Below are positions 19,641 to 62,450 of a DNA stretch of 64,000 bases, one piece after another. Position 1 is the first letter of the stretch; every line of letters starts with the position of its first letter. The stretch is from Hyaloperonospora brassicae. Lineage: Eukaryota > Oomycota > Peronosporomycetes > Peronosporales > Peronosporaceae. Below the pieces are notes generated by a model. The model saw nothing but the letters and a program-made list of their open reading frames with translations. It had not been told where the DNA came from and did no database searches. A program made the translations under genes and the position numbers. The stretch lies in assembly GCA_947650285.1 (NCBI GenBank), contig CANTFL010001487.1, forward strand, positions 223,361 to 287,360. The letters run 5' to 3'.

Positions 19641-19642
19641 AC

Positions 19643-19727: not shown

Positions 19728-19743
19728 GACACTGGAATTTCAA

Positions 19744-19758: not shown

Positions 19759-19902
19759 CGTGCACGGCACCACAAGTCGCACTTTGCAGTCGCACTACCG
19801 CACTGCAACACCAAACCAATCCGACACCCCATCCCACCCACCCACTCACTCACCCGCCTTCCACTTACACCGACTTCCCAGTCAACCGACCACCCATCAG
19901 TT

Positions 19903-45700: not shown

Positions 45701-46606
45701 ACGGAACCTCGGGACCATGAACCGCCCCGTGTTGGCAATCAGCTCGCCAATCACCAGCAGCGAGCCGTGCGCGCACTCCCACGTCGCCAGCACCGTCTGG
45801 TCGGTCGTGGGGCTCGCCAGCAACGCGCCCGCACTGGCTTTCGACCGCGGCCGCACGGCCAGGCCCTTGACCACTTGGTCGTACACTTTGCAGTACCACT
45901 GCACGCGGTGGCGCGTCTGGCGCCTCGTGATCAGCTGCAAACACGCGGCCAACGCACTGGTTGCAGCTTCGCGGATCTCGACGCGCGCGTCGCGCACGGC
46001 GCCCCAAATGCTCTGGAAAAACAGCGTCAGGTTCACGTGGAACAGCGTCGGCGCCGCCTGTGCGAGTTCGCGCAGGATGAAGCACGCGGCCAAACGCCGT
46101 TGACTCACGAGCGCTTCGTTCCGCGCCGCGTGCGCCCCGCCCGGCGCTTCCTGCAGCCACTCGAACGCGCGCTTGGCTTCAAAGTCGACGAAACTCGCCA
46201 CGAGTGTGCCGCTGACGCGCGACGCGGCCAAGTGGCCCATGGCCGACGCGGCGGCCAAAAGCGCTGTGCTGCTCGTCTGGGGCTGCTGGACAAAGTAGCG
46301 CAGGTAGTTGACAAAGCGGATGAACTGGTCTTCGTTCGAGACGTCGAGCAGGCGCTCGATCGCCAGCAGTGCGCCCAAATGCGCACTCTCAGACGCGCCT
46401 TTCTGCAGCAAGTTGTAGAGCTGCGGCGTCACTTGGCCCAGCGCTTTGGCGAACCGCTCGGCCGACAGCTGCCGGTGGAGCGACGTCACGGCCGCGTAGA
46501 GCTCGGCGACGCGTGCGTGGCGCGTGGCGGCATCCGCGACGTCGAGGCGCTGCACGAGCGAGACCAGGAGCGTGTGCTCGACGTGCTCGCGGTCTTGAAA
46601 CTGCAT
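36776..46606 (-). CDS. TOR: TOR (target of rapamycin) serine/threonine kinase
   Basis: One uninterrupted frame of 3276 residues from the Met at 46606 (MQFQDREHVEHTLL); a further in-frame Met at 46711 would add a basic Pro-rich leader and is less likely. HEAT-like helical repeats fill about residues 1-1500. The FAT domain begins near 1550. The FRB domain is at about 2405-2510 (LIRVAILWHEMWHEGLEEASRLYF region). The PI3K-like kinase domain is at about 2555-2830 with KGHEDLRQDERV, the catalytic loop GLGDRHPSN and the metal motif HIDFGD. The protein ends with the FATC signature ATSHENLCQCYIGWCPFW, which identifies TOR rather than ATM, ATR or DNA-PK. TOR forms TORC1/TORC2 and couples nutrients to growth. 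It is longer than animal or yeast TOR (about 2500), mainly through a roughly 390-residue Ser- and Gln-rich insert between kinase and FATC and a Gly-rich insert encoded near 42785-42950. Confidence 0.97.
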   Translation of the reverse strand: MQFQDREHVEHTLLVSLVQRLDVADAATRHARVAELYAAVTSLHRQLSAERFAKALGQVTPQLYNLLQKGASESAHLGALLAIERLLDVSNEDQFIRFVNYLRYFVQQPQTSSTALLAAASAMGHLAASRVSGTLVASFVDFEAKRAFEWLQEAPGGAHAARNEALVSQRRLAACFILRELAQAAPTLFHVNLTLFFQSIWGAVRDARVEIREAATSALAACLQLITRRQTRHRVQWYCKVYDQVVKGLAVRPRSKASAGALLASPTTDQTVLATWECAHGSLLVIGELIANTGRFMVPRFREVCDTVLKYKDAKERLVNRAVSRLLPQLAEFCPGAFVQYYLDVCVAHLTKKILEYSAPASERGVSFLAMGRLALAVGDALLPHLPPILKLVRESLAPHTGSKRKRTRNKWFCVQTLTCVANMSRALGSRFEPFLFQYGVLETMMLGGLSDDLIDSLAEVVASVPSALPYVQERLLNEISIILRGTPFSLGSSGATYPTCSSGATGSFSNGDGSELALDASYYDTPSEAPPVKQTAVQALLSSVKRGFSSVEDDPTSTNSSLMIKGETGDEIDTILLSLRTLSCFDFSGSFCLLPFVRDCVALYLKNPDARIRKQAVITCSKLLLPSPESPDTALMSSWRHVKKRGLSGRVIDHVLTQLLQVGISDMDAAVRKSVVESLDARFDELLSQESHLKLVFLLLNDENAKIRECAMQLLERLAPRNPAFTMPSLRRLVIQLVTELQHTSDLRMREDSTRLLGHLIRSAQHLVDPYVVRILEVLLPILVRGNASLTVAVLITLGELALVSRTQIAAYERYLFPLIIHTLQDHSSMEKRQVALQTLGQLAGSTGCVVRPYLASPKLLEIFLSLLHHNVGSPWSLRREAMRTIGILGALDPYKYKLCISRASLRQANEVASTADTSTAAGKDEKEVDKATLSVSNSISDTRMSQYPTLNIDQKALGVTIDLASFDRKATSDALNEKQQAELQLFTAAPIGTRKIDAGAATGTLGIDLQSSYPANGIVAASDGPPSSSLSSSSRKKRQVVSIGMSRSDDAFDFESSLMDNELELDPTELSPASEAYFPTVAIHALLHILREPSLNAHHHGVIQAIMFIFKSLSTQCVSFLKHILPPFLRVLARGEPRLRESLFLQLTTLISIVNAHMKPFFPPIMALALRFWGSHLPQIVRLVEEISQAAPHEFHTQYFPKVLPKLLEVLQPHFGIGGGATDGNLSGAAAGGGGTTTLAPSFGGDCAGAVGGGGGDNHAQGRNNTSGGSSDHTSSTYDIVQNGGGDGSVVAAIQVQVVQSLIVFGDAVNDYVYLLVPALVHLMESLDTPLEVKITTIYALARISVVASFEQYAGPRLLQPLARVASQISAKGPFFFSRSSSSVSSSGGSGGITVLTSSGAPSGAGAAHIATTKTEATRFSEVMLYALGALVFQLQGEILSYEPLLQQIIASLPFSHHGNLTAATNIPESNSSTSPPQAMVQRISQALEHVRHGLRVPLSFLDDRVFMTPTLRKFSTELQAQSAASMTPAASLPTNVRLHVNQQNLQRAWEASQRSTKEDWLEWMRRFSIELLRESPSAALRSCCALAQAYNPLARALFNPAFVSCWNELYEQYQDYLVRALETAFQSDTIPAEILQTLLNLAEFMEHDVEALPIDIRELGELAQKCHVYAKALHYKELEFHTSPSTCIEALISINNQLGQPEAAVGILKYAQAHHSRVIQVKETWFEKLQDWRAALALYNRRLQCAQEHGENEQGLDIEVCIGKMRCLEALGEWEELSALAARVWSFLRSPERTSAKTSAASSRGRLLSAGLAPSSASGGGSGASDFAPMRRASSSSHGSSSCLAAAGGPPSASSHQSGDDYCDEATALKRVAMLGARASWCLSQWDSMTQYVTECAAQNDSTSAFIFKTASGTVHGNGYGHTHGYGIFGADEDVTELSLYQSILAVHQGNFVRAEALIDATRKTLDTKLGALVGKSYSRAYRSMVTLQQLSELEEVVTYKKLRAHVSKSEEAARYKLHLMRMWRDRLSGCKRIVEVWQQMIAVRALILAPHEDIDTYLQFASLCRQSGNLSLSLKVFTNALHVYGGAGSSNTGISEMLRMTPSSSGPVSTFGFGEKDRNRVAFAYLKHLWAAGQKQEALSDLHHLVARISATARQRFQATGGMGSVPSAAPATVPSRSEGEELLVKCHLKMAEWQLAIHDQQIEHVPVEIVLSSLRLCTELDTRNYKAWHAWALMNFQVVEHSTHSQHISANATASAVTASASVAPYIAPAIEGFFRSVALGRSRWAANVQQDILRVLTLWFAHGHRADVHGALEKGFRSVSIETWLIVIPQLIARIHTPSPRIQNQLHRLLVAVGKQHPHALIYPLSVALKSSVTERQQAAEAIMSTMRTNYVELVDEALLVSRELIRVAILWHEMWHEGLEEASRLYFGEHNVDGMAEVLRPLHAMMERGPETLREASFHGAFGRDLREANEWLQRFLSNRRNESDLNRAWDLYYHVFRRINKQLPQVTTLELQVVSPNLLSARNLQLAVPGTYRAGHSIVKIGSFLPTVAVITSKQRPRRITIVGSNGLEYMFLLKGHEDLRQDERVTQLFGLVNALLVNDRNTSKKDLKIHRYPVIPLSDNAGIVGWVPHCDTLHQLIRDYREARKILLNIEHRLMLQMAPDYDALTLLEKVEVFQYALENTAGQDLYKVLWLKSENSEVWLDRRTNYTRSLAVMSMVGYILGLGDRHPSNLMLHRFTGTIVHIDFGDCFEVAMDREKYPEKIPFRLTRMLTNAMEVSGIEGNFRFSCESVMAVLRENRHSLMAMLEAFVHDPLINWRLLSASNMLSSSHVSSSVASSFVSSSIMSSMSSESDGGMYEPSEASSHGPSDVSSHESSEMSSHDRGEEKARHRRSESISIPDPTPASTAALLDDDDKPRPTSSRVQCTQKVSTLDVKETLDTNETCIAVKDETTAEKGGEADESDGESSDDSSVLVPQRQLPPHSRPPRPHPGGASPTDVRQSPPRPDAKAVETLPPPLPSSLSSRPMSLSKSIPLPVRKLPPRAPAVTRVREDAIDENEEFSVVEKIDYSTTNLNVEISSLAASVSSVGHSSLSRSFSVTHAQIQAQSRATEQQARQQQQQRQQQGSCQPARPEPERQSVAPGTPAGPPPRTIPAASTSFVSVTAAAQIPPASDAVPPSMMNDLHASRSIRERELLNAVGPEGIAAPRVALNEKAVAVIRRVQAKLSGRDFEGDGGEPLDVSAQVQRLISQATSHENLCQCYIGWCPFW

Positions 46607-47258
46607 GGGCAACGCGCAACAGATACCGACCAGGCGATTGCGCGTGCGCGGAAGGCGCGGGGTAGGGGTAGTAGGTAGACGACAGGAGTGTGGGTCAAGT
46701 TGCGGCGGCAACGTTGACGTTGCACGGCAAGGTTGCAGCGCCGAGACAGACAGGCGGCGTTATAGGGCAACCGCGCGCGCGTCAAGGGCAATCGAGTCGA
46801 AAAAAGCAGCACAACAAGAGGCGACGGCGGGGCGGAAGGGGAAACATCATCCATGGCAACGGCGGTTTTCGACGAATGAGAGAAGAGAGGGAGGGAAGGA
46901 GGAGTGTGGGGGGTGAATGACTGGCACCAAGAGTGATGGTCACACTCGCGAGGGGGTACGCAGAGGGAGAAAGCGATGTGGGGTACGCACGCAGAGCGTA
47001 CGGTACCCAGGTGCACGAACACGGCTCACTAAGCCTGGACGAGAGAGCGAGCAAGCGGGCGAGAGAGCAATAGAGCGAGCAGACGTAGTGGAGACTTCCA
47101 TGACAGAGTTCGAGTTGATGTGGTCGCGGCTGCACGAACATGCGGCGCAGAACCGGTGCATTACGAGCTAGACACAGACCACGACGGGAGAGACGACCTA
47201 AACGCGCTCGTTGCGGTCCGTCTCAGGCATTGCGACGACGTACGGCGTGCGCGCGCAG
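46607..47258. other. TOR 5' region and promoter
   Basis: This separates the TOR start from the 3' end of the eL34 gene, both on the minus strand. On the minus strand CTCATTCGTCGAAAAC at about 46863-46879 resembles the oomycete initiator and flanking motif and could be the TOR transcription start, giving a 5' UTR of about 270 nt. The remaining frames are motif-free. Confidence 0.4.
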
Positions 47259-47748: not shown

Positions 47749-48365
47749 CGCGAGAGAGACCGCGTCGGTGGGCCCGACGCCAGTCGTTTGGTGGCGCGAG
47801 GTGTGTGGACCACCCACACACCAAAAGAGTGATCGAGCGTCTATATACTGTATAGAGAAAGCGTTGTGCACGGCGGAGTGGTTAGAAATTGTACGACTGA
47901 TCGAATACGATGAAACAGGACGACGACAAGTGGGTCAATCGATAGAAATGGTCTGTCCTGCTGTTTTGACGTCGAAAAAAGCCGTGCGGCCAATAGCTGA
48001 GCCTGTATACTTGATCACATTTCGAAAAGTGTACTTGACAGAAATGGCGAGCGTTTCGGTTAAAAAGCTTTTTCCATCACGAAAAGCATGAGGAGAATAT
48101 TACGAAGGATGCTGATATCTCTGTGAAGGTCAAAATCTCGACCTCAAATTGATGGTCCTACATGGCAACTACGTTCTGTAAGAAACGAATCCAAAAACCA
48201 GCAGTAAAGTTTGTGAAAAGGTCCAGAAACCAGCACCAGTTCTGAGATGAGACCACGCAGAACATTGAAATTGGGGTCACACAAAGTTAACTGCCAAATT
48301 GTATGAAACTGCGATATTGGTTTCGGAATTTTCCATTTTTAAGGAACCGTTGGTTTGATCTTATT
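47749..48365. other. intergenic, no recognised gene
   Basis: This is the upstream region of eL34 up to the TRIM-like element. The 107-codon plus-strand frame at 47768-48091 begins inside the eL34 promoter region and has no motif. Nothing else was recognised. Confidence 0.5.
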
Positions 48366-48598
48366 TGTTGGAAGTGCAAGTTGCACTCGGGTCGACTCCA
48401 GAGATTAAACCTACACTTGGGCATTTATGGAATGTTCTACAGGGTTCTATGTGTTGTATTAGGCAGCACAAAGATATAGGTTGGGTAGTTATTGTATTTT
48501 GACAAGCCACTGACGAGGCCTCTGGCGGGGGGCCGAAACGCGTCTGGCGCGCGTTTTAATACAGGTCATTTCATTTACTTAATGTTCTCTTTCTAACA
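48366..48598 (+). repeat. 5' LTR of TRIM-like element
   Basis: 233 bp, beginning TG and ending CA. It contains a GC-rich stem, AAACGCG with CGCGTTT, near its 3' third. Confidence 0.88.
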
Positions 48599-49043
48599 GG
48601 TTATGAGCCCAAGCGGCTTGGGTTGGTGCTACGTTGTACACGGGATGTGCGCTGGGAGCGAGTTCTTCCATGAAGTCGCGATGGGACATGGTCCGACGAT
48701 GGGGATCTACGTAAGCGCATGGTGGACAAGCAGTCGCTATTTGTGTTCGCGAAAGGGACAACCAAGCTCTGCAACTGACGGTGAAGGTTACGTGAAGTGA
48801 AGTGATGGTGGTATTGAAGTGGTCAAGAGCAAGAAAGAACAAGAAAAAAAGCTCGACGATGAATGAAGGATGTCAAGATGAGACACGGTCCGGACAATGG
48901 GGGAGCCAGGATAACCTACCAAGCGAGCAACAAGGAAGTTGGCTGAAGAGAAGGTGGACAGCCCCATTAGAGCCTGCAGAGAAGACAGGACGGTACGGAC
49001 GATGGATGCTCAGGCGGTTTCATCTCATGTCGTCGAGGGGGAG

Positions 49044-49276
49044 TGTTGGAAGTGCAAGTCGCACTTGGGTCGACTCCAGAGATTAAACCTACACTTGGGC
49101 ATTTATGGAATTTTCTACAGGGTTCTATGTGTTGTATTAGGCAGCACAAAGATATAGGTTGGGCAGTTATTGTATTTTGACAAGCCACTGACGAGGCTTC
49201 TGGCGGGGGGACGAAACGCGTCTGGCGCGCGTTTTAATACAGGTCATTTCATTTACTTAATGTTCTCTTTCCAACA
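49044..49276 (+). repeat. 3' LTR of TRIM-like element
   Basis: 233 bp, about 97% identical by eye to the 5' LTR at 48366-48598, and directly preceded by the polypurine tract. Confidence 0.88.
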
Positions 49277-49547
49277 TAATTAAGCAGACTTTATTTGGCA
49301 AACGGACGTAATATTGCTCATTTAGCAACCCACGAGCGCTGACGAAGAAGGACGGAGGCCTCTGCGTTGCCCGGTGTGTTGGTACTCTCATACTCGCGGG
49401 AAGCAATCCTTGTGATGCGAAGGTATAAGAGGGAATTTCAATTCATCTGCACGTGATAGGCGAAAGGATTCATGAGTAAATGATAATTTCTCTGCACGTG
49501 ACAGAGGATGGGACGCAGCGCGCGATTAGCAGGCTGTAGACAACCTT

Positions 49548-49986
49548 TGTAACGGGGTAGCCCGTTACATGAAATTGTCATTAACACAATTTGACAATAA
49601 AGAATATTACGTCGAATATTCTTTCAACAATATCATAGACATGGTGATATTGTTGAGATGACCGAAGGGTCTACTCATTGGTTGATATCGTGATGATGTC
49701 AACCCACCAATCGCTGCTAGACACGCGCAATGGGTGGTGAGTAGACGTCATCATACATTTGGTTATATTAGTATAATTAAGTCAGGACAACAAAGATTCA
49801 AGGATTTATAGGACTTAATTATATTATTACAGACTTACTTTTACCAAGAGACTAGTCTGACTACTTATTCTCCTTTCCTTCCTCTGTGTTCCTTCAACAC
49901 CTAGCAGGGCACTGTCGACCACTGTCCTCAGTGGAAGTATACTCCGTACTGGTCAACCAGTACGTAGTTAACAGTGCCCCGTTACA
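49548..49986 (+). repeat. 5' LTR of Gypsy element
   Basis: 439 bp. Almost the whole LTR can be drawn as hairpins: TGTAACGGG/CCCGTTACA at the start, AGAATATT/AATATTCT at 49601-49622, a 12-bp stem at 49624-49635/49645-49656, GTCTACTCA/TGAGTAGAC at 49669-49677/49738-49746, a 12-bp stem TATAATTAAGTC/GACTTAATTATA at 49772-49783/49812-49823, and GGGCACTGT/ACAGTGCCC at 49907-49915/49971-49979 that encloses two smaller stems. Confidence 0.95.
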
Positions 49987-49988
49987 CC

Positions 49989-50005
49989 TGGTAGCACTTT
50001 GTAGT
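49989..50005 (+). promoter_or_regulatory. probable primer binding site
   Basis: TGGTAGCACTTTGTAGT begins two bases after the 5' LTR. It starts with TGG, complementary to a tRNA CCA end. The same sequence follows the LTR of the inverted related copy (about 60970-60984 on the minus strand), which supports its importance. I could not assign a tRNA. Confidence 0.55.
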
Positions 50006-50036
50006 CCGTCCAAGGACCACAACCCCATCGCCCAAC

Positions 50037-51158
50037 ATGAACGTGTTGGACGATGTAGACGGCGACAGCTTTCACGGAACCCGTGAAAGCTACTCCCATT
50101 TGAGCGACATCGAATGGAGTGCGATCGAACGAATGAGTTCGACTGTTGTCGAGGAAGCCATATGGGCCATGCTATCCTCAAGGGATAGGGACCAGCAACA
50201 TGTCGTCATTAGCAAGTTCTTGCAACGAGAACTTGATGATTCGCGAGCGCAGGTGACCTTGTTACAACAACAATATCACCAGCGTACCGAAGCACTGAGA
50301 CAACAACAGTCTCAGTCCGCAGAGCCTACGCGTGAGCGTCGACGGGAGTCTCTAAAACTAGAGGTATCCAAGTATCGGGGAGTCGAGGAAGACTCCCTGT
50401 TGAGGTGTTTCGTCGAGCTGGACGATGCCATCGATGCTCGTCGCATCGACGATGAGCGAATGCAAGTATAATTCGCTCAGTCTAACCTGGCAGGAGAAGT
50501 CAGAGCTTGGGTCCTGAACCTCAAGTTGCACGACCCAAATGTGTTTGGGTCGTTGAGGATCTTCAAGAACCTGCTCAGTGAGACGTTCGAGCTGCCCAGA
50601 GCAGAGTTCAGGACTCTTTCAGAGCTCCTGAACATGAAGCAGGGTAAGCGTAAGGTTCACGCTCACGCTCAACATGTACGCTACCTTGCAAGCTGCATGG
50701 TAGTGAACCCTGTGAGTGAGTTTGTGTTGATCGCAATCTTTATTCAAGGGCTTTCAGACGGTCCCGTTAAGGACCACCTGTTCCGCGGAGAGCTAAAGAC
50801 GCTCTCAGAGGAAATCTTCGCAGCGGAGCAAGAAGATTACAATGTGAGGCAGGCTCACGCTACGTTGACCCCGCATCGTCTACAGAGACGATTAGCAGTC
50901 GGAGGTCCAGAACCAATGGACCTCTGTCAAGTTGAGGGCTAGAAACCTCGCCCTATGAACGACAAGCGAATGGTGAGATGCCATCGCTGTCACAAGTTGG
51001 GACATTATGCATACGAATGCAGTGTCCCCCGCTCAGAACTTCGCGGTGCTGAGCGCAGTATTCACCCACCATCAAGAAGAACTGGAGAGCGAGGGTCCGT
51101 TGCTGTTGCGAAGTCGCAACAGCGAAGTGGACCATCAAAAAACGGTCGGGATCAGTAG
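50037..51158 (+). pseudogene. Gypsy gag (two in-frame stops)
   Basis: One frame runs from the ATG at 50037 to the TAG at 51156-51158 and is interrupted by TAA at 50469-50471 and TAG at 50940-50942. The N-terminal part has a coiled-coil-like Gln-rich stretch. The middle is a retrotransposon gag domain (FKNLLSETFELPRAEFRTLSELLNMKQGKRKVHAHAQHVRYL region). The C-terminus carries a CCHC knuckle, CHRCHKLGHYAYEC. The related frames at 60481-60936 (-) and 62755-63423 (+) match it closely in the N-terminal and the C-terminal parts respectively, which shows that both stops are later damage. Gag makes the virus-like particle, and its knuckle binds the RNA. The frame ends inside a -1 frameshift signal. 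Confidence 0.9.
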
Positions 51159-51180
51159 GGGCGGAGCGCCCTACTGATCC
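51137..51180 (+). promoter_or_regulatory. -1 programmed ribosomal frameshift signal (gag-pol)
   Basis: In the gag frame a perfect slippery heptamer, A AAA AAC, lies at 51137-51143. After a 5-nt spacer comes a perfect 12-bp stem-loop: GGATCAGTAGGG at 51149-51160 pairs with CCCTACTGATCC at 51169-51180 across an 8-nt loop. The gag stop (51156-51158) is inside the stem. The pol frame is exactly -1 relative to gag and is open from the slip site onward. All three parts have the textbook order and spacing of retroviral and Ty3-like -1 frameshift sites, so Gag-Pol is probably made by slippage here. Confidence 0.85.
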
Positions 51181-54100
51181 AGCAACATCAAGAGAATTTG
51201 CAAATCTCCTGAAGAAGGTTGCTCCCGACACACAATTTCTGTGTGTCTCTGCACCTAGTGATATGGTGTCTCTCATCACCTTGAAGTTAGAAGTGACAAA
51301 AGACTTGTCACTTCGCGCCCTAGTTGACTGTGGGGCGTCGAACAATTTTGTTCGTCGCCAGTCGCTAGAGGCAGGAAGTTTTAACTTCATGGAGCGGGAG
51401 ATCCCTCCAACGAAGATGACGGTGCGCCTAGCGACAGGCGCATCGATCACTGTGAATAAACGTGTAGTCGGAATCCACTACACGTTAAAAGGCGAACAGT
51501 ACGATGCTGATTTCATCGTGCTTGACCTAGATGACAAGTTCGACGTCATCTTAGGGTTACCTTGGCTCAGGAAATACGAGCCAAGGGTGAGTTGGCAGTA
51601 TCGATCGGTTACGATACCTGCCACTTGTTCCTCAGATAACCACCTGACGAATATCTTGGAACGCCCACACTCACGTGGGTGTACTACGAGTGAGTGCGAT
51701 GGCCTCACTTGTGGTACGGTCGTTAGCACGACTGCACAATATCACAGTGTAGTTGATCACTACACTGTGGAGAAAGCTCTCCCAGATCCTGTGGAAGTGA
51801 TGTCCCAGGAAGTAATCGAGACACTGAATGTCTTGGTTCATGACGGATCAAGCGTAGGCGCTTACACGCTTGATCTGGTTGCGCCTCCGAAGTTAACTTC
51901 GGAGATAATCCAACCGCCGAAGCTAGAACCGAAATGGTTCTTGCATGATCTGCGTAGTGGCAAAGTCAAGCAGATCTGTGTACTGGTCGCGGAGGACGAG
52001 TACGTTACCGATATTCGGTCGGCAACGTTGTTTACTGAGAACGAACGGGTTCTCAGCAGTTTATCGATGGACGAAAGTGTCCTCGATGAGAAGACTCGGA
52101 TTGAGCGATACGCGTCCCAATCCTGGGAGTCACTTCAGGCAAATCCTTTGTATAAGGATTTGATCGAATTCAAGGATGTGTTCCCTAAATCCGTGCCTTG
52201 CGAGTTGCCTAAGGACAAAGGCACTCGACACGATCTCGAGCTCAAACCGGGCTCGAAATATTGTGTCATGAAGCAGTGGCCACTGCCTCGTGAACAAGTG
52301 ATAGCAATCGACAAGTTCTTTGCCGATCGCTTAGCAGCGGGCCATGTGAGAGAATCAACATCCCCTCACAGCTCTCCGACCTTCTGTGTGCGAAAGACCA
52401 CAGGAGGATGGCGGATAGTGCACGCATTCAACAAGTTGAATGCTGCAACGGTACCGGCTCAGACGCCGATACCAAGAAAGGACGTAACCATAGATGGTAT
52501 GTCAAAGAGTACCATCTTTTCGTCTGTGTATCTGATGGACGGATTCTATCAGATCTTCATGCGTGAACGGGATGTTCCGTACACGGCAGTGATCACCCCC
52601 AGCGGTATGTTGTGGGAGTGGCTAGTGATTCCACAGGGTCTGAGTAATGCTCCTGCAACATTCAACAGATGCGTTACAAATCTGTTGAGACCGGTGCGGG
52701 ATTTCGCACCGAGTTATTTCGATGATGTGTTCGTCCATAGCCGGGCTGTGGATGGAAAGACGGACGTTGAAGTCCACCGAACTCACGTCCGTAAGGTTCT
52801 TCAACTTATGCTCAAGCACAAGTTGTATGCCAACATCAAGAAGTGTATATTTGCGGCAAGCGAAATACCACTTCTTGGGTGCATCGTCGGCAAACAAGGC
52901 GTACGCCCTGATCCCGAAAAGATAAAGGCGATCACCGACTGGCCAGTGCCAGTCGATGTCAAATACCTTCGTAAGTTCCTTGGCTTAGCGGCGTACTTGC
53001 ACAAGTACTCGCGCAACTACGCCGAGATGCCTGTTCATCTTTCTTGCTTTCTCAAGAAAGATGTGAAGTGGTCATGGAATGCTGACTGTCGGCGTTCCTT
53101 TGAAGGTATCAAGCAAAGCTTGATGCAGTCGCCGATATTGGCGATTGCAGATCAGGACAGATTATTTCATGTGGTCTGTGACGCCAGCGATTTTGCTATC
53201 GGCTGTGCGTTGATGCAGTATGACACAGACGGCGAAGAGCGCGTCGTCTGCTATCAATCGCGTCAGCTGCAACCAGCTGAACACAATTACCCAGTGCATG
53301 AAAAGGAACTCCTTTCCATGAAGTATGCACTGGCTAAGTTCCGGGTCTATCTCTTGGGAGATAGACTGTTCATCGTCTACACGGACCATGCGTCACTACG
53401 CACGGCCGTAAACAGTCCACACCTCTCGAAAAGGATGGCGAGGTGGCTGTCTTTCTTCGCGGAGTAAAACTTCTCCGTGGAGTACAAGCCAGGAAGACTT
53501 AATGTCGTCGCGGATGCGTTATCACGTCGGCCCGACTTCGAGCCAACGTCCCGAGTCAACAGTGAGGCCTTGCCCACTGTTTCGACACTGTCCATAAGTG
53601 TGCCGTCGTCGCCTTTACTCGACGACGTGCCGAAAGCATACGCAGGAGACACATATCTCCTCCGTTTGATGGATCATCTTGCGAACCCATACCGGAAATC
53701 CTTGTCGGATTTGCCGGCTCTGTACCATTCGTCTTTGGATCGGTACACGACTCGCAATGGCCTGCTGTACTATACAGCAGTTGCCGACGACACGCCTCGT
53801 GTCGTCGTTCCCGATCATGATGACTTGCGATTACGCATCATGTTCGAATGTCACGATGCGCCGTCTGGCGGGCATCGTGGCCGAGAAAAGACTTACCTCA
53901 CGGTCAGTCGTGACTTTTACTGACCCCGCCAGTATCATTTTGTCCGCAAGTGAATTCGTTCTTGCGAGGTCTGTCAAAGGGTGAAGCCTAGTCCTTCATC
54001 CCGTGCGCCATTGCAGCCTCTGTCGGTCCCGGCAGAGTGTTGGGAGTCCGTGTCCATGGACTTTGTCTTCGGTTTTCCCGAAGACGCTCACAAGAATAAT

Positions 54101-55737
54101 GGTATTATTGTGTTTGTGGATCGTTTCAGCAAGATGGTACATCTTGCTGCAGTCCCAGAATCGATCATCGCCCACGGCTGTACGCGTGTCTTCATCGACA
54201 CTGTGTTTCGACTCCACGGTCTACCCCGTGAGCTCGTATCCGAATGTGACCCTCGGTTCACGGCGGCGTTTTGGCAATCCGTGTTCCGCACATTGGGAAC
54301 ACGGTTAAAGATGTCAACCTCTGACCATCCTGAAACAGATGGTCAGACAGAACGTGCGAACCGTGTCCTCGAAGAAATTCTTCATGGATACGTCCACTCC
54401 TTTTCACATTGAAGTGAGTTCTTGCCGATGGTTAAGTTTGCCATAAACAACTTCGTGCATGCGTTCACAGTGCATACACCGTTGTACGTGAATGGCTTAC
54501 GCCACACACGTATTCCCGTCCTCATACAGAGTGACTCTGATTCAAGGGGGGATGGGACTTGCTCGAGCAAAATTCGTTTTGGCTCTTGCTCATCACGTAT
54601 CACCGCTCACGCCGATACGTTTGATGCCGATGTCGATACTGTCGAAATCGACGAAATCGAGCTTAGCAATAGCGATGACGCTGCTGCTACACAGACAATG
54701 ATGACGATGCTGGGATATTTAGCATCGTCGACGACAATGCCAGCGAGGAAGAAGACACCCTCGTTGAAGAAGAGAACGATATCTTAGCAGTGCGCACGAA
54801 GCGCACTGAAAGACACAACAAAGAGTCAGCAGAGAACTTCCTGCTGACTCTAGAGGCGGTAGTTCGTTTCGTTCGGGACTTCATCGCAAATGCGGTGGAC
54901 CGCCAGAAACGGAACGCAGACAAGAATGGAAGATCAAATGTTCTTTCATTTAAGGGTAGCGAACTAGTACTACTGTCTACGGTAAACTTACCTGGACATG
55001 CAGTCAGTAGTGTTGGCAGTAGTAAACTACTGCCAAAATACATTGGTCCATTTCGTGTGTTGCACCGCAAGGGCAATGCATACACGATTGAATTTCCTCG
55101 TAGGATGCGCACACATCCTACGTTTTATGTTGGTCGTCTCCGCCCGTACCATCAGTACGGGGCTTCTTGCGAGAACGGAGATAACCGGCGCGCTCAAGAA
55201 TCCCCAACAGATTCATGTCATTACGGACCATACACTGAAGTTGGTCCTTCAGCGACGCGGTCTCGCGACGAGCCGTCTCTAGCTCGTAGCGCAAACGACG
55301 TCTCTCGCGTTCACTCTCAAGATGGGCGAACGCGAATTCCGATCGGTCCTTCTCCCGATCGGAACGAAGAAGTCGCACGTCCGACTTCAAGGCGTGCCGT
55401 CGGTTGTATTCGTGCTCGACGTCCTCCCTCAGCTCGTACATGTAACGCTCGTGGTTATTCAAAGTCTCGTGCAGGCCCGGAGGCTGAGCCGGACCTTGTC
55501 TTTTCACCGCCACCGGAACCACCGGTGAATCCCCACGGTGGTCAACGCTTTCTTGTAAAGCGTATCTTGAACCACCGTGGCGATTCAGAATCAAGGACGA
55601 TTTACCTCCTCCAGTGACGTGGGTATCCACCCTCTTGGAACAGCTGGGATCCCCGCTCTCAGCTGTTCATGGATGTTGAAGGTCTCGTCCGCCAGTATGA
55701 CGAGACCCATCTGATGAGTCCTCGGGCCCATCGGTAA
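51144..55737 (+). pseudogene. Gypsy chromovirus pol (PR-RT-RNase H-INT-chromodomain), broken
   Basis: The frame entered after the slip site encodes in order: an aspartic protease with DCGAS in place of DTG/DSG (Asp codon at 51326); reverse transcriptase with YFDDVF (GATGAT at 52721-52726); RNase H (about 53150-53460, VVCDASDFAIG and HEKELLSMKYAL); an integrase with an HHCC finger (about 53850-53980), MDFVFGFP, DPRF and DGQTERANRVLEE; and a C-terminal chromodomain at about 55511-55737 (GGQRFLVKRIL...WNSWDP). Damage: TAA at 53465, TGA at 53921, 53951, 54410 and 55615, and a frameshift between about 54665 and 54695. The chromodomain, which targets chromatin marks at integration, places the element in the chromoviruses. 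The linker before it overlaps antisense frames. Confidence 0.92.
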
Positions 55738-55827
55738 ACACGCGCTTTTGGCGCTTGTAGACGGATTGCAAGTTTGCAATCGCGTCCCGCATCTCAGCCG
55801 AGAAGTGTGCCCTTCCCCAGGACAAAC

Positions 55828-56760
55828 TTAGGGAATACACGTCCCTATGTGCCATTGCGAGTTGTCGACACAGCTCGCACAAGGATCAACCCAAGTGAGG
55901 CATGGAATGCCGGCCTCACTTGACAAACAATGCAACCGGTACCTTGCACCGGTTGGCGTTCGCTTTTCAAAATTGAGGCGTATCGCCTCAAGCTTCTTAA
56001 GCCACCCTTCTCGTCCAAAATTCTTTACGTTTTGGACGAAGGCTTTCCACGCTGCCAATAGCAAATTCTTGTCACGCTTTTGGTTGCCGTTATAGCATAG
56101 ATGTCTAAGGAAGGCATCGGGATAGAAGTCCTCTTCAGCGCGGAAGTTACTCGCGCTGGGTCCTAAGCCATGAAGCTTAGTTGCATCGAATAAAGGAATT
56201 CGATGGTGCTGGCTTGTCTCGTGAGACAAGATATTGATGAGCTGCTCGGGCAAGCGCCACGGCTTGATCTCACCACGCTTCGATGTGGTACCTGTTTCAC
56301 TACCACGGCTTTCAGAATGACGATGGCTCTCGCCATCGTCATCGCGCTCTTGCGGAGAAGCACGAGTTGATACTGGTGAGGCATAGAATTCCTCATCATC
56401 AGACTCATCATCACTTCTGAACAGACTGTGTTGCATTTCACGAGTCCGCTCGTTCGACAGTGCTATTGACGAACGATGAGGCACCGCCGGTGATCGGGAT
56501 GCCTCTGGAACGTTGCGCGAGTCAGGCACGTCTGACTCGCCAGAATTGATGACCTCATTGCCAAGGTCATCATGTGTAGGTGATGCGACACCTCGTGCGT
56601 CTGCAGCACCTTCTGCTGCAGACGGAGAACCAGCAGCAGATGGAGAAGCGTCTACCGCAGAGACTGGTACAGCAGCAGGCTGTGTGGTCTTCGAATCACA
56701 TCGCATAGACATGTTAACTATGCGAGGCAGGGTCAGGAGTGAATGGGTCTGACCAAACAA
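55828..56760 (-). CDS. antisense ORF of the Gypsy element, unknown function
   Basis: A 310-codon frame opposite in direction to pol, lying wholly between the end of pol (55737) and the 3' LTR. The first half is Ala/Ser/Asp/Glu-rich and probably disordered. From about residue 165 it becomes compact and ordered-looking: KPWRLPEQLINIL, HHRIPLFDATKLHGLGPSASNF, EDFYPDAFLRHLCYNGNQKRDKNLLLAAWKAF, FGREGWLKKLEAIRLNFEKRTPTGARYRLHC. No pol domain lies on the other strand here, so it is not a shadow. Further open antisense frames follow at 55882-55667 and 55630-55118, the latter a strong coiled coil, so the original protein may have been longer and frameshifted since. I recognise no family. Whether it is expressed, perhaps from the 3' LTR, is unknown. 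Confidence 0.55.
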   Translation of the reverse strand: MFGQTHSLLTLPRIVNMSMRCDSKTTQPAAVPVSAVDASPSAAGSPSAAEGAADARGVASPTHDDLGNEVINSGESDVPDSRNVPEASRSPAVPHRSSIALSNERTREMQHSLFRSDDESDDEEFYASPVSTRASPQERDDDGESHRHSESRGSETGTTSKRGEIKPWRLPEQLINILSHETSQHHRIPLFDATKLHGLGPSASNFRAEEDFYPDAFLRHLCYNGNQKRDKNLLLAAWKAFVQNVKNFGREGWLKKLEAIRLNFEKRTPTGARYRLHCLSSEAGIPCLTWVDPCASCVDNSQWHIGTCIP

Positions 56761-56831
56761 GTGCTCCCTGTCCCACTGGTGTCCAACGGGTGGCCACCAA
56801 GTTTTCGATAGTCACACGGTGACTATCAGAT

Positions 56832-56841
56832 AAAGGAGGGG
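56832..56841 (+). other. polypurine tract
   Basis: AAAGGAGGGG lies three bases before the 3' LTR, in the position of the plus-strand priming site of LTR elements. Confidence 0.75.
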
Positions 56842-56844
56842 TGA

Positions 56845-57283
56845 TGTAACGGGGTAGCCCGTTACATGATATTGTCATTAACACAATTTGACAATAAAGA
56901 ATATAACGTCGAATATTCTTTTAACAATATCATAGATATGGTGATATTGTTGAGATGACCGAAGGGTCTACTCATTGGTTGATATCGTGATGATGTCAAC
57001 CCACCAATTGCTGCTAGACGCGCGCAATGGGTGGTGAGTAGACGTCATCATACATTTAGTTATATTAGTATAATTAAGTCAGGACAACAAAGATTCAAGG
57101 AGTTATAGGACTTAATTATATTATTACAGACTTACTTTTACCAAGAGACTAGTCTGACTACTTAGTCTCCTTTCCTTCCTCTGTGTTCCCTAAACACCTA
57201 GCAGGGCACTGTCGACCACTGTCCTCAGTGGAAGTATACTCCGTACTGGTCAACCAGTACGTAGTCAACAGTGCCCCGTTACA
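56845..57283 (+). repeat. 3' LTR of Gypsy element
   Basis: 439 bp, about 12 differences from the 5' LTR. Some of the differences break stems seen in the 5' copy (for example the A/T change in the AGAATATT hairpin), which suggests that the stems are ancestral and are now decaying. Confidence 0.95.
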
Positions 57284-58110
57284 ACCTACCATACGGTGTC
57301 TAGGTACGACTGTCGACGTACTCCGCGATTAAATTTGATGTAACCGTTTGATGTGCTGTATCTCGCTGTTTGATTTTGCCTGTAACGTGTGATAGGTTGG
57401 ACGTTATCTATACCGTAAAACCTCTTTTTGATACTTTGCAAGTCGATTGCGAAGAGTCTGCTACAGTCCTGATTTACATTTAAAGTGGTTCTGACGTCGT
57501 TGCTTCTTGTCATACCACCAGGAATCGGATAGAAGGGCAAAAAAGCACGTCCCGAAACGAGGAGAAGGCAAGAATGGCTTAAAAATGGCGCGATCAGTGA
57601 GCGCCGGGATCAGAGGGAAGGCGCGATGTGTTGTGTATATGTATGTAACATATAGGACGCTCCATGATCGAAGCTAGCGGTGTTTGCGAGTGCTGGGAGA
57701 AGAACTTGTCATTGCAGAGGCCGTTAAGTTTGCACTTGCAATGGTTTCCTGTACATGTAAGCAATGAGGAGCTACATTATAATAATATATAGCAAGCGTG
57801 TTTTGAGCAATGATATTTCAATTGTGTTGTTGTATTTACTCTTTGTAAAATCTTTGCACAGTACGTCAAATTGAGTATGAAGGCAATAGATCCACGCGGA
57901 TGGCATTCGTTTGAGGTTATATCGGACAACAATGTATTCGTCACGAAGACTAACGCCGGATTCACAGGGTTTATCGGGTTACTTAAGCCAATTGAATTTG
58001 CTTCAAAATGATCATTCTTTTGTTCCATCAAAGTCGCATGGCGCCGACACGTTATCTTGTTATGCCCCGCTTTTAACGCAATAGCGGCATCTGTACGTAG
58101 CTCCAGACTT
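57284..58110. other. intergenic, AT-rich, no recognised gene
   Basis: This is the right flank of the Gypsy insertion. A minus-strand frame of 84 codons (57286-57540) ends almost exactly at the insertion point but shows no motif. Nothing else was recognised. Confidence 0.45.
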
Positions 58111-59450
58111 TTAATCTTCAGAGCTAGTGATACGCCTTTTTTGTCGTCGTCCAGTTTTTTTACAACAAGGTGGTGGATTAATCATCACTTGAGGTGTTCT
58201 AGTGCTGACAACCAATTCAATCGACCTCCACAGGAACCCTTGCTCAAAATTTGTAAGTAGGTATGCTGGATGAAAAGCTGCCGTTGCGATTGTAGAACCA
58301 TTAATATTGAATACGGCGACAAGTTGGCGGCAAGACAACCTCATTGCATGCAAGTCAAGCATGAGAAACTTATTGCTTCAACATCAATGCGCCGATTTCT
58401 AGCGTAGTCTTGTTTCGAGGCAAATCATATAGTGGAGGTCGACCGGGCAACTTCATATCCACCCGCAGCTTCTTTTTCTTTCTCCCATAGAGACCGCGCA
58501 CGAGAAATCATAGTAAGTTTGTTTGCTGACCACTTTTTAATTTGATCTTGACGCATACAAAAACTTTTATAGTCGCCTGTGTGTTATTTTTTTGAATGCT
58601 TTGAGAGGCGATAATCAAGAATACCATGAACGAGCATAATTTTCTTATTAGTTTCGACAAAGTTAGTGGTTCGCCACCCAAAAAGAGAACACGGTTGCAT
58701 GGGTGGTGCACGACGGTCTTGGTGATGCGTGCTTGTGGCCGCATCTGTGCTCGACGTTGTGAGCTTTTTGACATTCAAATTTCCCACGATAACTTCCATT
58801 TGCATTTTTGCCAATACTGTTCAATAAATGGGATTAATATCCCCGATGTATGCGGCATCATCGTCTCCAAACTTTGTTCGTAGTGCCGTAAGAGCAGCGT
58901 TCTACTCTATCTCGGACTCTGCTGATTGAATTTTCCACACGGCATTCTCGAAGTCAGAACCAGAACCCGAACATCCGAAAATCTGTTTTAAATTACGCAA
59001 AATGTGCAAGGTACATATCTGAATCCGAAGGCTGATACTTGTGATTTCTTACACTTGTTTCACGGCATCTTGTATCTTCCCACGATCACACACCATCGCG
59101 ATATTCACCAAATTTATTACAGCCTTAATGCAATGAATGGAAAATCATAAAATGTTGTCCTTGTTCTCCACATTCACGAAGGCAGTGGCCAACGTTATTT
59201 TTTTTTACCATTTCCGTCTCGACCAAAAATAAAGAAAATCACGCCATAAAATTTGTGATGCCGCAAATGCGTTCCATCGAAGCCAACCACGGAAATATTA
59301 TATTGTTGGCTGCTAACAGTTACTCCAAAGGCCACAAACAAGCATAAAAATCAAGTTTCTTGTTCCACTTCGAGCACCACCGTGCTGGATCGGTTCGAGC
59401 GCTTCTATTCAATCCAATGTGGAGCTAGAAGCTCATTAGACAATTTTGTT
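58111..59450 (-). pseudogene. MULE (Mutator-like) transposase relic
   Basis: Read on the minus strand, broken frames give a Mutator-like transposase in the correct order. FDGTH with HHKFYGVIFFIFGRDGN is at about 59290-59200 and carries the first catalytic Asp. NVATAFVNVENKDN is at about 59195. VCDRGKIQDAVKQV follows at about 59095 with the second Asp, and CTLHILRNLK at about 59015. Next come a conserved middle part, TKFGDDDAAYIGDINPI, at about 58870, and PPMQPCSLFGWRTTNF at about 58690. A SWIM-type Cys/His region and a tail rich in PPP and RRQKRR follow at about 58420-58120. In-frame stops at about 58904, 58847 and elsewhere, and several frame changes, show it is dead. No terminal inverted repeats were identified. 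Confidence 0.82.
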
Positions 59451-60480
59451 CGCCTTTCATCTCTTCAATGACCGCTTCTTTAGCTTTGTAGGTCTTGGCT
59501 CGATACTTTTCTTGATTAATTTCGTCACGGAAGCGGACTAGCACCACAATTGCCTTGCGCTTAATGTCCTTGTAACCTAGAACCGCAGCATTAAATGTAG
59601 GAAGAATTTTGATTTGCCTTGCTGAAGGATTGGAAGTTGCGAGGCACATATCCGAGTGAATATCGTTTGGCGTCGAAATGTAGTGCTCAGAAGATGCACC
59701 CTTCCGCTGTCGCCTCGTCATGCGGAGTTCTCACGGGCAGCCGTCTTGTGGCACCGTCTTGTGGGCACACATACGTTTTTCTCCCACCACTACACCTCTT
59801 GACCTTGCATAGTCGATTATAAGTAAAACAGTAGTCTTGTATGGACATAGTTGCGGTAGCGCCCGTCTGGAAAATGTGTCCCTTTGACAGTACTTTGGTA
59901 CCGAAAATTTATTCCATGTCAATCATATCCATTTTGGGATACATCTTGATGATTCGGTTTTATGTTTCGTACATAAATTTAACTTTATTAACACACCACA
60001 CAAATAAATGGTGTGGTCCCCATTATTTATTATCTGTGTGGTGTCGTCTCAGAACTGGTGCTGGCTTTCCGGACTTTTGCACAAATCTACTGCTGTTTTA
60101 TGGATTTGTGCTTCTGTAGGTCGCACAGGGTCTATCTACATCCGTTAAAGGTATGCAGTACCTGACAGGACAAAGTCTACGTGCAACTACAGCAAAATAT
60201 GAGATAAATCTGGTAGTGCAATCCTCATAGTTCTACCCGCATAAAGTTCAGCGATACATCTTCCTTTCTCAGAAATAACGTCTACTTTGTCAACATCAAC
60301 ATACTTGATGCAAGTCGTGGTACATTGGCACGAAGACAACATAAATTTTCGTCCTGTTTCGTGTGAGATCGACTCATCAGTATGTTTTCTTCGTTTCAGA
60401 CGCGGTGTCGATTATGAAGATTGCAATGTTTTCATGCTGCACATTACATACCATACAGTAACACACCGTAGATAGATCAT
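59451..60480. other. intergenic, possible MULE N-terminal remains
   Basis: Minus-strand frames at 59425-59721 and 59731-59922 lie where the N-terminal part of the MULE protein would be, but I cannot match them to it. An inverted repeat (ACACCACACA at 59993-60002 with TGTGTGGTGT at 60035-60044) could be a transposon end or a small hairpin. No gene recognised. Confidence 0.4.
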
Positions 60481-60936
60481 CTATGAGCACAGAGCCGACA
60501 GAGCCCTTAAGGCTCTGTCGAGTTCGACAAACCACAGTAACAGGGAGTCTTCCAAGACTCCACTGAACTTGGAGATGTCAACTTTCATGACCTCGGGACG
60601 GCGCGCATGTGCCGTCCCGCCCACAGCAGCATGTAATTGCTGCTGTCTCAACAGCTCTGTCTGTTGTGCACCGAGTTCTCTCAACTGCTCGGCCTGTTGA
60701 GAGCCTTGCTGGTGAAGCAATGCTACTTCCTCCCTTTCGGCGACAAGTTCATGTTGAATGAACTTGGCTATAGCGGCATGTTGTTGGTCTCTGTTGAGAG
60801 ACTCCAACATGGCGCTAATAGCGACCTCGCCTACGGTAGAACTTATGCGTTCTACCGCACTCCATTCAATGTCACTCAAATGGTTAAACCCCTCACGCGT
60901 GGCGTGAAAGGTCTCCTCATCATCCAACATGTTCAT
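60481..60936 (-). pseudogene. truncated Gypsy gag N-terminus
   Basis: 151 codons beginning MNMLDDEETFHATREGFNHLSDIEWSAVE, collinear with MNVLDDVDGDSFHGTRESYSHLSDIEWSAIE of the full element and with the same Gln-rich coiled-coil segment. It stops after ELDRAL, where the full element continues into the gag core; the last few codons are foreign flank. This copy is useful for comparison: at matching codons both copies form stems although the paired bases differ (see findings). Confidence 0.85.
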
Positions 60937-60986
60937 GGTGGATGATGTGGAGGTGGTCGCTAGAAGGACTACAAAGTGCTACCAGG

Positions 60987-61398
60987 TGTAACGGGGCATG
61001 CCCTTGCGTGAACTTAACGCAAGGGTACCGTGCACCGACAAGCGTACACGAGGCAACCGAGGAGGCGGTAGGTAAGACAGAGGCAACACTGTATAAGGGA
61101 AAAGTAGAGCTCTTATATTTTAACAATTAAGTCTTTAACTACTGTCTCTCTGTTTGACTTAACTTAATTATACTAATCTAACTGAATGTATGACGACGTC
61201 TACTCAACACTCATTGCGCGCGTCTTGCGGCAATTGGTGGGTTGATATCATCACGTTATCAACCAATGAGTAGACCCTTCAATCATCTTCAACAATATCA
61301 CCATGTCTGTGATATTGTTAAAAGAATATTTGACGTAATATTCTTTATTGTCATTCTATCCTTAATGACAATATCATGTAACGGGCTACCCCGTTACA
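60987..61398 (-). repeat. LTR of inverted Gypsy fragment
   Basis: 412 bp on the minus strand, starting TGTAACGGGG and ending CCCCGTTACA. It shares the hairpins at its start and the 10-bp AACAATATCA/TGATATTGTT stem with the full element, but has its own stems elsewhere, such as CCCTTGCGT/ACGCAAGGG at 61001-61009/61017-61025. Confidence 0.88.
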
Positions 61399-61403
61399 AC
61401 AAC

Positions 61404-62320: not shown

Positions 62321-62412
62321 AATGTATCAATTTGTTCGAATGTTACCCCCGAGGGTATTATTCGTGGTTGCTACACTTCTTGGTTGATTCACACGGTACA
62401 TTAACCAAATTA

Positions 62413-62450
62413 ACCACCAATCGCTGCTGGACGTGCGCAATGGGTGGTGA
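62413..62450 (+). repeat. short Gypsy LTR remnant
   Basis: About 38 bp (CCACCAATCGCTGCTGGACG...GGGTGGTGAG) match positions 49704-49741 of the Gypsy LTR with few changes. Sequence on both sides differs, so this is a scrap of an LTR, possibly the left part of the third Gypsy copy. Confidence 0.6.

Follow-up and report, generated by a model that had tools for sequence, protein, structure and literature searches.

The stretch of Hyaloperonospora brassicae DNA studied here (the window: 64,000 nt of assembly GCA_947650285.1, contig CANTFL010001487.1, positions 223,361-287,360) contains at 49548-57283 a decayed copy of an oomycete Ty3/Gypsy retrotransposon family that carries short perfect hairpins from LTR to LTR, and near-identical young copies of the family are present in the same genome. 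Tentatively, and at somewhat less than even confidence, we ascribe these hairpins to selection in the element's replication cycle, whereby each of the two strands would form its own secondary structure and so be less prone to anneal to its complement. A sequence-only reading had called the element Gypsy, and this assignment is borne out by two flanking LTRs (97.3% identical over 439 bp), by a Gypsy-type protease-RT-RNase H polyprotein, recognised through Pfam and homologues, and by a Tf2-type SH3 domain, also from Pfam. The pol frame runs on past RNase H, where an integrase would be expected, and is broken by stops in the ORF list; the integrase core PF00665 is present in some homologues. In the gag-like translation, CHRCHKLGHYAYEC, spotted by eye, is presumably a zinc-knuckle-like motif. 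A search of 48000-64000 found no known RNA families and no tRNAs, and no relatives were found among viral contigs. The features are as follows.

49548-49986, plus strand: 5' LTR, starting TGTAACGGGG and finishing CCCCGTTACA
49548-49569, 49599-49624, 49624-49656 and 49945-49964: stems inside the 5' LTR
49995-51158, plus strand: gag-like region with in-frame stops (ORF list)
51053-54787, plus strand: pol, decayed (Pfam and reading frames)
51263-53467, plus strand: protease, RT and RNase H within pol (Pfam RVP_2, RVT_1, RT_RNaseH, RT_RNaseH_2)
54679-55617, plus strand: C-terminal part with SH3_Tf2-1 (Pfam, E 1.6e-12)
55828-56811, minus strand: antisense ORF with 327 codons between stops (ORF list; no Pfam family)
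56845-57283, plus strand: 3' LTR (LTR-LTR comparison)
49548-57283, strand-neutral: 57 perfect stems of at least 8 bp with loops of at most 10 nt, 23 of them of at least 10 bp (exhaustive count)
60496-61398, minus strand: inverted fragment of a related lineage, LTR and start of gag, hairpin-rich (blastn, stems, alignment)
62650-64000, plus strand: gag-pol fragment, hairpin-rich (blastn, stems)

With loops of at most 10 nt, the element has 23 stems of at least 10 bp, 40 of at least 9 bp and 57 of at least 8 bp, while 20 dinucleotide shuffles of it give means of 0.15, 0.35 and 1.2 and maxima of 1, 1 and 4, respectively. The sequence-only reading had listed 14 inverted repeats in the first of these classes and had expected well under one by chance; all 14 are perfect at their coordinates, and the list undercounts the total. 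With loops of up to 20 nt there are 65 stems of at least 8 bp, and the 42 of at least 9 bp located in this way include those 14; when loops of up to 40 nt are allowed, 63 of the 71 stems of at least 8 bp have loops of 0-13 nt. The "nearly continuous chain" of the same reading overstates the case for the window copy, of which stems of at least 6 bp cover 21%; hairpins with stems of at least 7 bp cover 25% of it and 40% of a young copy.

Synonymous shuffles, which preserve protein, codons and dinucleotides, likewise leave few stems. Namely, pol (51053-53464) has 17 stems against 0.85 (maximum 5 in 40 shuffles), gag, pol2 and the C-terminal piece have 6, 5 and 6 against 0.52, 0.25 and 0.38, and the ORF of a young copy has 54 against 1.6 (maximum 6 of 40). 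Chance, base composition and codon use are thus ruled out as the source of the stems. What is more, mean RNA folding z-scores in 120-nt windows are -2.95 on the plus strand and -3.07 on the minus strand (n=64 each), against means between -0.40 and -0.05 in control stretches. The TOR-like ORF at 36776-46711 has 1 stem of at least 8 bp against 2.0 in its shuffles, and the host stretches 1-12000, 14372-22844 and 28308-36128 have 4, 4 and 2, with shuffle maxima of 7, 4 and 3; the last of these contains a FYVE-type gene. In other words, the checks that the sequence-only reading had proposed (both kinds of shuffle, folding z-scores, and TOR and the FYVE genes as controls) uphold its claim that inverted repeats lie far above chance in coding and non-coding parts of the element, unlike TOR, which it had rightly placed at about chance level.

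The hairpins are not limited to 49548-57283, being found also in the two element-related stretches of the window. In particular, all 30 stems in 57284-64000 (at least 8 bp, loop at most 13) lie inside 60496-61398 and 62654-63982, with none in that range between or before these fragments; over 1175 aligned bases, the fragment at 62650-64000 has 95.4% identity with L019, a young locus. Further afield, we took the 20 best-scoring of 151 Copia matches (L031-L050), of which 16 have 0-0.27 stems/kb and four (L032-L035) 1.1-2.1, three of the latter exceeding the shuffle maximum, largely by virtue of a TGACGTCA array. Among 12 RVT_1 loci picked by hand from a list of 150, seven have no stems, L052, L059 and L062 (members of a single family, with 58-61% identity to pol of the window) have 0.42-0.45/kb, L053 has 4.6/kb, and L060 (84% identical) has 7.7/kb. 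The trait recurs in a second Gypsy family and is absent from most other retroelements sampled. With most Copia and RVT_1 loci near zero, a general property of retroelements is excluded. A process acting on the whole host genome is excluded as well, because the host stretches, a Copia-like stretch and most sampled retroelements are near chance and because the changes private to old copies are for the most part disruptive to stems, as described next.

The sequence-only reading had also called for a count over all family copies; ours extends to 30 genomic loci (window copy included) rather than to every copy, and the trait is present in them. Judging relative age from branch lengths and LTR identity, stem density peaks in the youngest sampled copies, at about twice that of the window copy: all 14 of the youngest loci (L017-L030) have 12.8-13.0 stems/kb, L002 has 10.2, and the other 15, window copy included, have 5.0-9.2. 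One young copy, on C63, has LTRs identical over 391 bp, which suggests recent activity, and the LTRs of L002's copy differ at 4 sites over 442 bp. In these two copies the hairpin-rich region has sharp LTR-to-LTR limits. Namely, the last 2302 nt and 2317 nt within the 3' end contain 33 and 30 stems, whereas the 1049 nt and 1188 nt that follow the 3' LTR contain none; upstream there are 3 in 2973 nt and 1 in 3481 nt. Changes that follow insertion are mainly decay and mostly disrupt stems: of 897 private changes in 15 old copies, 239 strike sites of young-copy stems and 81 fall inside the copy's own stems, 59 of these coming from L013, without which the figure is 22 of 654.

Between young lineages, on the other hand, stems diverge less than the rest of the element. 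In the comparison of L019 with L002, 355 of 2747 stem columns are changed against 956 of 4983 outside (a stem rate 0.67 of the rest), and the deficit is seen in gag (p 5e-4), pol (p 2e-7) and the 3' part (p 3e-5). In the non-coding LTR, 0.207 of stem sites are changed against 0.329 elsewhere (p 0.013), with similar deficits in two further LTR pairs (p 0.02 and 0.03). Moreover, 20 of 747 pairs (140 more were excluded for gaps) are changed on both sides and still Watson-Crick, where 2-3 are expected. We infer that selection, rather than mutation, maintains the pairs. Alternatively, the element's reverse transcriptase could create stems and repair them through quasi-palindrome correction, a fold-back form of template switching, at each cDNA synthesis, with no need for selection on structure. 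This would account for pairs that are perfectly Watson-Crick and overall show no bias towards wobble on one strand or the other, for a trait restricted to some element families and their replication phase, and for the slight clumping of double changes (at least two in 7 of 122 stems; variance 0.485, mean 0.336), and there are precedents, as summarised in the respective sources, for template switching that creates and maintains hairpins (PMC8794818) and homogenises arms in coding genes (PMC8604942). That said, we consider it unlikely, since three results argue against it. First, 34 of 44 double changes are transitions, where two independent steps predict 30.9 and one-step copying 23.0 (P 5.5e-4), gag alone, with 13 of 20, being undiscriminating. 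Second, multi-base changes limited to one arm show no clear excess (seen in 23 of 51 stems, the expectation being 20.0; losses and gains pooled). Third, the spacers of 56 loops include no exact inversion and 2 that are nearer the inverted form. The lower divergence of stem columns, non-coding LTR included, also speaks against it, as do arm residues that agree with the family majority nearly as often as others do (0.59 and 0.60 versus 0.61).

Which nucleic acid would be folding? Over ten partly overlapping comparisons, broken pairs are G-U in 145 cases and A-C in 146; three young-young comparisons give 53 and 68 (p 0.20). Stems with one mismatch in three elements give G-U:A-C ratios of 33:31, 24:31 and 9:15 (summed 66:77), and in sense orientation the ratios are 25:29 for L002, 23:28 for L007 and 22:31 for L014. 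A few small comparisons favour G-U: L060 (16:10), two with decayed fragments (13:7 and 5:1) and the window segments (28:22). Stem pairs are, in short, strand-symmetric and Watson-Crick, with no overall preference for wobble, and, G-U being overall no commoner than A-C, what is maintained is not sense-RNA folding by itself. Selection on such folding, be it for genome-scale ordered structure, packaging sites or masking of RNAi targets as in some RNA viruses, is for this reason very unlikely, even though plus-strand z-scores lie far below shuffled sequence at a GORS-like level, compensatory changes are present, the hairpins occupy the whole element and those few small comparisons lean towards G-U. 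Both strands fold equally well, and the 4-nt loops of three elements have no common motif (GNRA in 1 of 19, 1 of 15 and 5 of 19; UNCG in none). In DNA, G-U would earn no reward, and selection may have favoured hairpins in single-stranded DNA (minus-strand cDNA, or cruciforms extruded from the duplex) that protect or compact a replication intermediate. The lack of wobble preference and the LTR-to-LTR extent are in keeping with this, as is a slight A-C excess, of the kind expected from G-T pairs in the minus strand, among young-young comparisons and in two of the three elements (31:24 and 15:9, with 31:33 in the third). However, the excess is not significant and is reversed in some comparisons, and we know of no requirement for such structure in Ty3/Gypsy cDNA; on balance, we regard this explanation as quite improbable.

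The sequence-only reading had put forward no mechanism. Under the one that we favour, the selected property would be the self-folding of both complementary strands. Since every G-U pair becomes A-C in the complement, only Watson-Crick pairs would serve both. By folding, sense and antisense RNA would be kept from forming a duplex, and hence from Dicer, which would also spare the element the roughly 25-nt siRNAs that are proposed silencers of repetitive elements in Phytophthora. In the 3' part, the second RNA strand would be the predicted transcript of an antisense ORF that, judging by its homologues, is conserved in the family: in a young copy it has 492 codons (L064, 321-1796, minus strand) and 16 homologues, other oomycete sequences among them, and matched no Pfam family. 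Elsewhere, the second strand would have to be read-through antisense RNA or minus-strand cDNA. In favour of dual-strand folding, the region of this ORF is rich in stems: it has 16.3/kb, and gag and pol have 13.7/kb. The LTR, however, is higher still (17.9/kb). The bolder version, in which the whole genome, LTRs and genes, has been recoded as Watson-Crick hairpins of some 24 nt so that its strands never duplex, genes can lie on both strands and dsRNA silencing is dodged, strikes us as doubtful.

Base composition agrees with dual-strand folding only in part. Longer stems are poorer in GC in two of three elements of a larger set (rho -0.24 and -0.23, and -0.04 in the third), though not in a smaller one (80 stems, one locus). 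Loop G/C is 0.44-0.49 against 0.52-0.55 in chance stems, which fits the rule of fewer unpaired GC by which Q-beta replicons, as summarised in PMC6913131, avoid double-stranded RNA. Against it, linkers between hairpins are not G/C-poor, arm GC is at chance in two of three elements, and the second hairpin-rich Gypsy family shows no such trade of length and GC and, in its sampled pieces, no antisense ORF. What is more, the ORF takes up roughly one fifth of the element's length, and hairpins occur throughout; tolerance of G-U on each strand predicts transition mismatches above the mutation spectrum, where L019 has about 2.3 per path against a neutral 2.7; the small comparisons mentioned above lean to G-U; and clumping of double changes is expected from copying, too.

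The narrow span of the hairpins is likewise not accounted for by dual-strand folding. One young element has 133 non-overlapping stems of 7-14 bp, in hairpins about 24 nt long distributed from LTR to LTR, and for stems of at least 8 bp the standard deviation of span is 3.02, where independence of stem and loop would give 3.81 (2.97 and 3.63, respectively, in L002, and 2.20 and 2.77 in the family of L053). A span of about 22-24 nt fits small RNAs of 21-26 nt, and guides derived from the element might fold up and so be evaded; in P. infestans, as summarised in PMC3804510, retrotransposon small RNAs are mostly 24-30 nt. The effect is small, however: on sense strands, the share of 25-mers that fold at -5 kcal/mol or below is 0.35 for the young element, 0.27 for a sister family almost devoid of stems and 0.24 for TOR, and the window copy's span is no tighter than chance (p 0.32), so that we give this idea the least credence. 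Self-folding of 21- and 25-nt pieces that is but modestly above the sister family counts against dual-strand folding as well.

If the dual-strand reading is true, a mobile element would be under selection for base pairing over its full length and on both strands while retaining its proteins. It would be a natural test case for the way in which an element keeps its two strands apart as it replicates, a problem also addressed with Q-beta replicons, and hairpin density would be a new axis of possible variation among transposons in how exposed they are to RNA silencing. Should template switching be true instead, we would be dealing with a reverse transcriptase that writes hairpins. Under either reading, the trait is directly measurable.

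Paper listings of the open-licence PMC literature gave no described element saturated with short perfect hairpins, in line with the sequence-only reading. The element shares with other oomycete Ty3/Gypsy elements (Metaviridae) its LTRs, gag-like ORF, protease-RT-RNase H and Tf2-type SH3, and differs in its hairpin-rich sequence throughout and in the antisense ORF of its 3' part. RNA genomes with genome-scale ordered structure and Q-beta replicons, as outlined in PMC6913131, have pervasive local structure and G/C-poor loops in common with it, whereas here we see a retrotransposon with separate short hairpins, strand-symmetric and with no wobble preference. The mitochondrial coding palindromes summarised for Nematomorpha (PMC6649704) are also perfect inverted repeats within coding sequence, but reach 284 bp, against stems of 7-14 bp here, which occur in non-coding parts as well. 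Template-switch hairpins, in the accounts of PMC8794818 and PMC8604942, share perfect stems and concerted arm changes, while signatures of one-step copying are mostly not seen here. Plant Retand Gypsy elements have an antisense ORF between pol and the 3' LTR (PMC11963269); ours has no Pfam match, and hairpins are not among the Retand features summarised there. Finally, yeast Ty3, too, has a structured RNA genome, with a folded core and palindromes for dimerisation according to the summary in PMC11381356, as against hairpins throughout in the present element.

Judged by its predicted domains, the element at 49548-57283 is a Ty3/Gypsy retrotransposon, bounded by LTRs of 439 bp (97.3% mutual identity) and interrupted by in-frame stops; among named proteins its nearest matches belong to Peronospora, Globisporangium, Pythium and Phytophthora, which together with the relationships of a FYVE-type gene in the window places the host in the Peronosporaceae, a family of oomycetes. 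All 14 of the inverted repeats that the sequence-only reading had listed in it are indeed perfect at their coordinates, and an exhaustive count over the 7,736 bases finds 57 such repeats with arms of 8 bp or more and loops not exceeding 10 nt (hereafter simply stems), 23 of them of at least 10 bp, as against means of 1.2 and 0.15 in 20 dinucleotide-preserving shuffles. If loops of up to 40 nt are counted, 63 of 71 stems have loops of 0-13 nt. That reading had also held the TOR-like ORF (36776-46711) to be at about chance level in the parts it checked and the stem count to lie well above a simple chance estimate. Both views were borne out. Namely, TOR and other host stretches fall inside their own shuffle ranges, the window pol carries 17 stems versus 0.85 in synonymous shuffles, which retain protein, codons and dinucleotides, and fold z-scores average about -3 for either strand of the element (-0.40 to -0.05 in TOR, host and Copia-like stretches). 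We found no description of a hairpin-filled retrotransposon in the open-licence literature searched, and the accessible portions of PMC6649704, PMC8794818, PMC8604942, PMC11963269, PMC11381356, PMC3804510 and PMC6913131 mention none filled with short hairpins.

A protein search of the genome (100.56 Mb, 898 contigs; 61 of 7,691 candidates scored) gave at least 106 matches. Among the matches listed, 16 copies, including that in the window, matched in one stretch, and 45 were 90-91% identical from roughly residue 175 onward, with frames mostly of 1,339 codons and no stops in any of the 45. Fourteen of these 45 (L017-L030) entered the DNA-level counts as the young group; they are 99.6-99.98% identical to the reference copy L019 and hold 12.8-13.0 stems/kb, compared with 10.2 in the short-branch copy L002, 6.5 in the window copy and 5.0-9.2 in the 14 remaining copies, each locus being pol plus 1.5 kb per side, so that old loci may contain some flank. 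In the young open frame, 54 stems stand against 1.6 in synonymous shuffles. In both copies whose edges were checked, a young one on contig C63 (identical LTRs of 391 bp) and L002 (4 differences in 442 LTR positions), the hairpins stop at the LTR: downstream of the 3' LTR, stretches of 1,049 and 1,188 nt contain none, and upstream of the element there are 3 in 2,973 nt and 1 in 3,481 nt, respectively.

Changes private to old copies have mostly arisen while these were host DNA. Of 897 such changes, 81 lie within the old copy's own stems (22 of 654 leaving out L013), and 239 of 897 lie at stem sites of the young copy. From these counts we infer that the stems are made and maintained during the element's own replication phase, and then rot. 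The old copy L013, with 59 of its 243 private changes inside its own stems, may be chimeric, having recombined with a hairpin-rich lineage outside the sample. In the other old copies (L001, L003-L012, L014-L016), G>T and C>A make up 152 of 283 private transversions.

Aligning L019 with L002 gave 747 gap-free stem pairs, 140 gapped pairs being set aside. Of these, 639 are intact, 80 are broken by a single change, 8 are changed on both sides and unpaired, and 20 are changed on both sides and still Watson-Crick, where the per-site rate (136 of 1,494 sides) predicts 2-3. Over the 5' part, pol and 3' part, which overlap slightly, the two copies differ at 12.9% of stem columns versus 19.2% elsewhere; the deficit is seen separately in gag, pol and the 3' part, and also in the non-coding LTR (20.7% versus 32.9%, p 0.013). 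Stems of the young ORF avoid the third-with-third codon register (11, 29 and 29 of 69 by phase), a bias that is weak in the window copy (16, 24 and 18 of 58). Arm codons match the family-majority residue nearly as often as codons outside (0.59 and 0.60 versus 0.61), in columns that are somewhat less conserved (0.63 versus 0.68), and therefore pairing seems to have been bought mostly at tolerant sites. The lowest match is that of loop codons (0.50).

It is possible that a stem-correcting RT, copying one arm onto the other, restores pairs. However, changes cluster on one arm in 23 of 51 stems (20.0 expected), none of 56 spacers is an exact inversion, and 34 of 44 changes in doubly changed pairs are transitions, versus 23.0 expected from the single-mutation spectrum that copying would leave (P 5.5e-4) and 30.9 from two independent steps, a figure that coding constraint may bias. 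The gag doubles alone (13 of 20) fit neither spectrum decisively, and doubles are slightly clumped within stems, which is compatible with copying or selection.

If a sense-RNA fold were being kept, G-U pairs should be tolerated. Broken pairs are G-U in 145 cases and A-C in 146 over ten partly overlapping comparisons, and 53 versus 68 in the three comparisons between young lineages (p 0.20). One-mismatch stems stand at 33:31, 24:31 and 9:15 in three elements, and smaller sets go either way (16:10 in the pol relative L060, 2:7 in L053, of a second hairpin-rich Gypsy family). Mismatch classes track the transition bias expected under neutrality, which is 2.7 per path as measured on 664 private changes. 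The force keeping the pairs thus looks strand-symmetric. What pairs as G-U on one strand reads A-C on the other, so the best fit is a need for both complementary strands to fold, a reading to which we give somewhat less than an even chance; a requirement at the cDNA level or for a cruciform is also possible. Stem stability seems to count: longer stems are GC-poorer in two elements (rho -0.24 and -0.23; the relation is absent in L053), loop GC is 0.439, 0.467 and 0.486 versus 0.52-0.55 in chance stems, linkers of the same elements are not GC-poor, and arm GC exceeds chance only in L053.

Were both strands to fold on themselves, sense/antisense duplex would be avoided. In Q-beta replicons, internal folding that leaves few G and C unpaired is reported to limit annealing of complementary RNAs (PMC6913131). 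P. infestans retrotransposon small RNAs, mostly of 24-30 nt, are proposed to silence repeats (PMC3804510), and duplex avoidance would therefore pay. A candidate source of antisense RNA, were it expressed, is an ORF read from the opposite strand:

Antisense ORF in the 3' part
55828-56811, minus strand, window copy
L064:321-1796, minus strand, young copy, 492 codons

This ORF is conserved, with 16 homologues (E <= 0.001, 7,999 candidates scored), Peronospora matthiolae among them; no Pfam family matched it. Stems/kb are 16.3 in its region, 13.7 in pol and 17.9, the highest, in the LTR. The whole line of reasoning from folding to dsRNA avoidance is an inference. That said, the antisense ORF spans one fifth of the element, which sits poorly with this reading, and hairpin span is narrower than stem-loop independence predicts in three elements, though not in the window copy, and nothing in the proposed mechanism sets a narrow span.

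Among the loci sampled, the trait in its strong form is limited to part of one Gypsy clade. L060 (pol 84% identical) has 7.7 stems/kb; L053 (RT about 60% identical) has 4.6 in its RT piece, and two flanking pieces of 2.8 kb hold 21-22 stems each. Relatives of L053 forming one family (L052, L059, L062) have 0.42-0.45, and seven other RVT_1 loci have zero stems. None of 20 Copia loci exceeds the threshold of twice the shuffle maximum, and 3 of the 20 lie above the maximum itself. The second hairpin-rich family (L053, L067, L068 on contig C14) has shorter, GC-richer stems and a span of about 22 nt. In the Copia loci L032, L033 and L035 (about 537-610) and L034 (about 112-190), an array of TGACGTCA palindromes, which we take to be CRE-like, lies upstream of the RT with a repeat spacing of roughly 12-15 bp.

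As for the surroundings, a 233-bp direct repeat, 97% identical (48366-48598 and 49044-49276), lies immediately upstream of the window element, and a mosaic lies beyond it:

60496-64000, mosaic made up of three fragments: LTR-gag (inverted), Copia-like RT, and gag-pol of the young subfamily
about 61500-61700, the Copia-like RT fragment in the mosaic, read by eye

A piece of LTR akin to the element's (L063:1-239, contig C63) stands about 2.7 kb upstream of the young copy on that contig and is 98% identical to part of that copy's LTR. The FYVE-type host gene in the window is nearest to Peronospora matthiolae (57%), Hyaloperonospora and Phytophthora.
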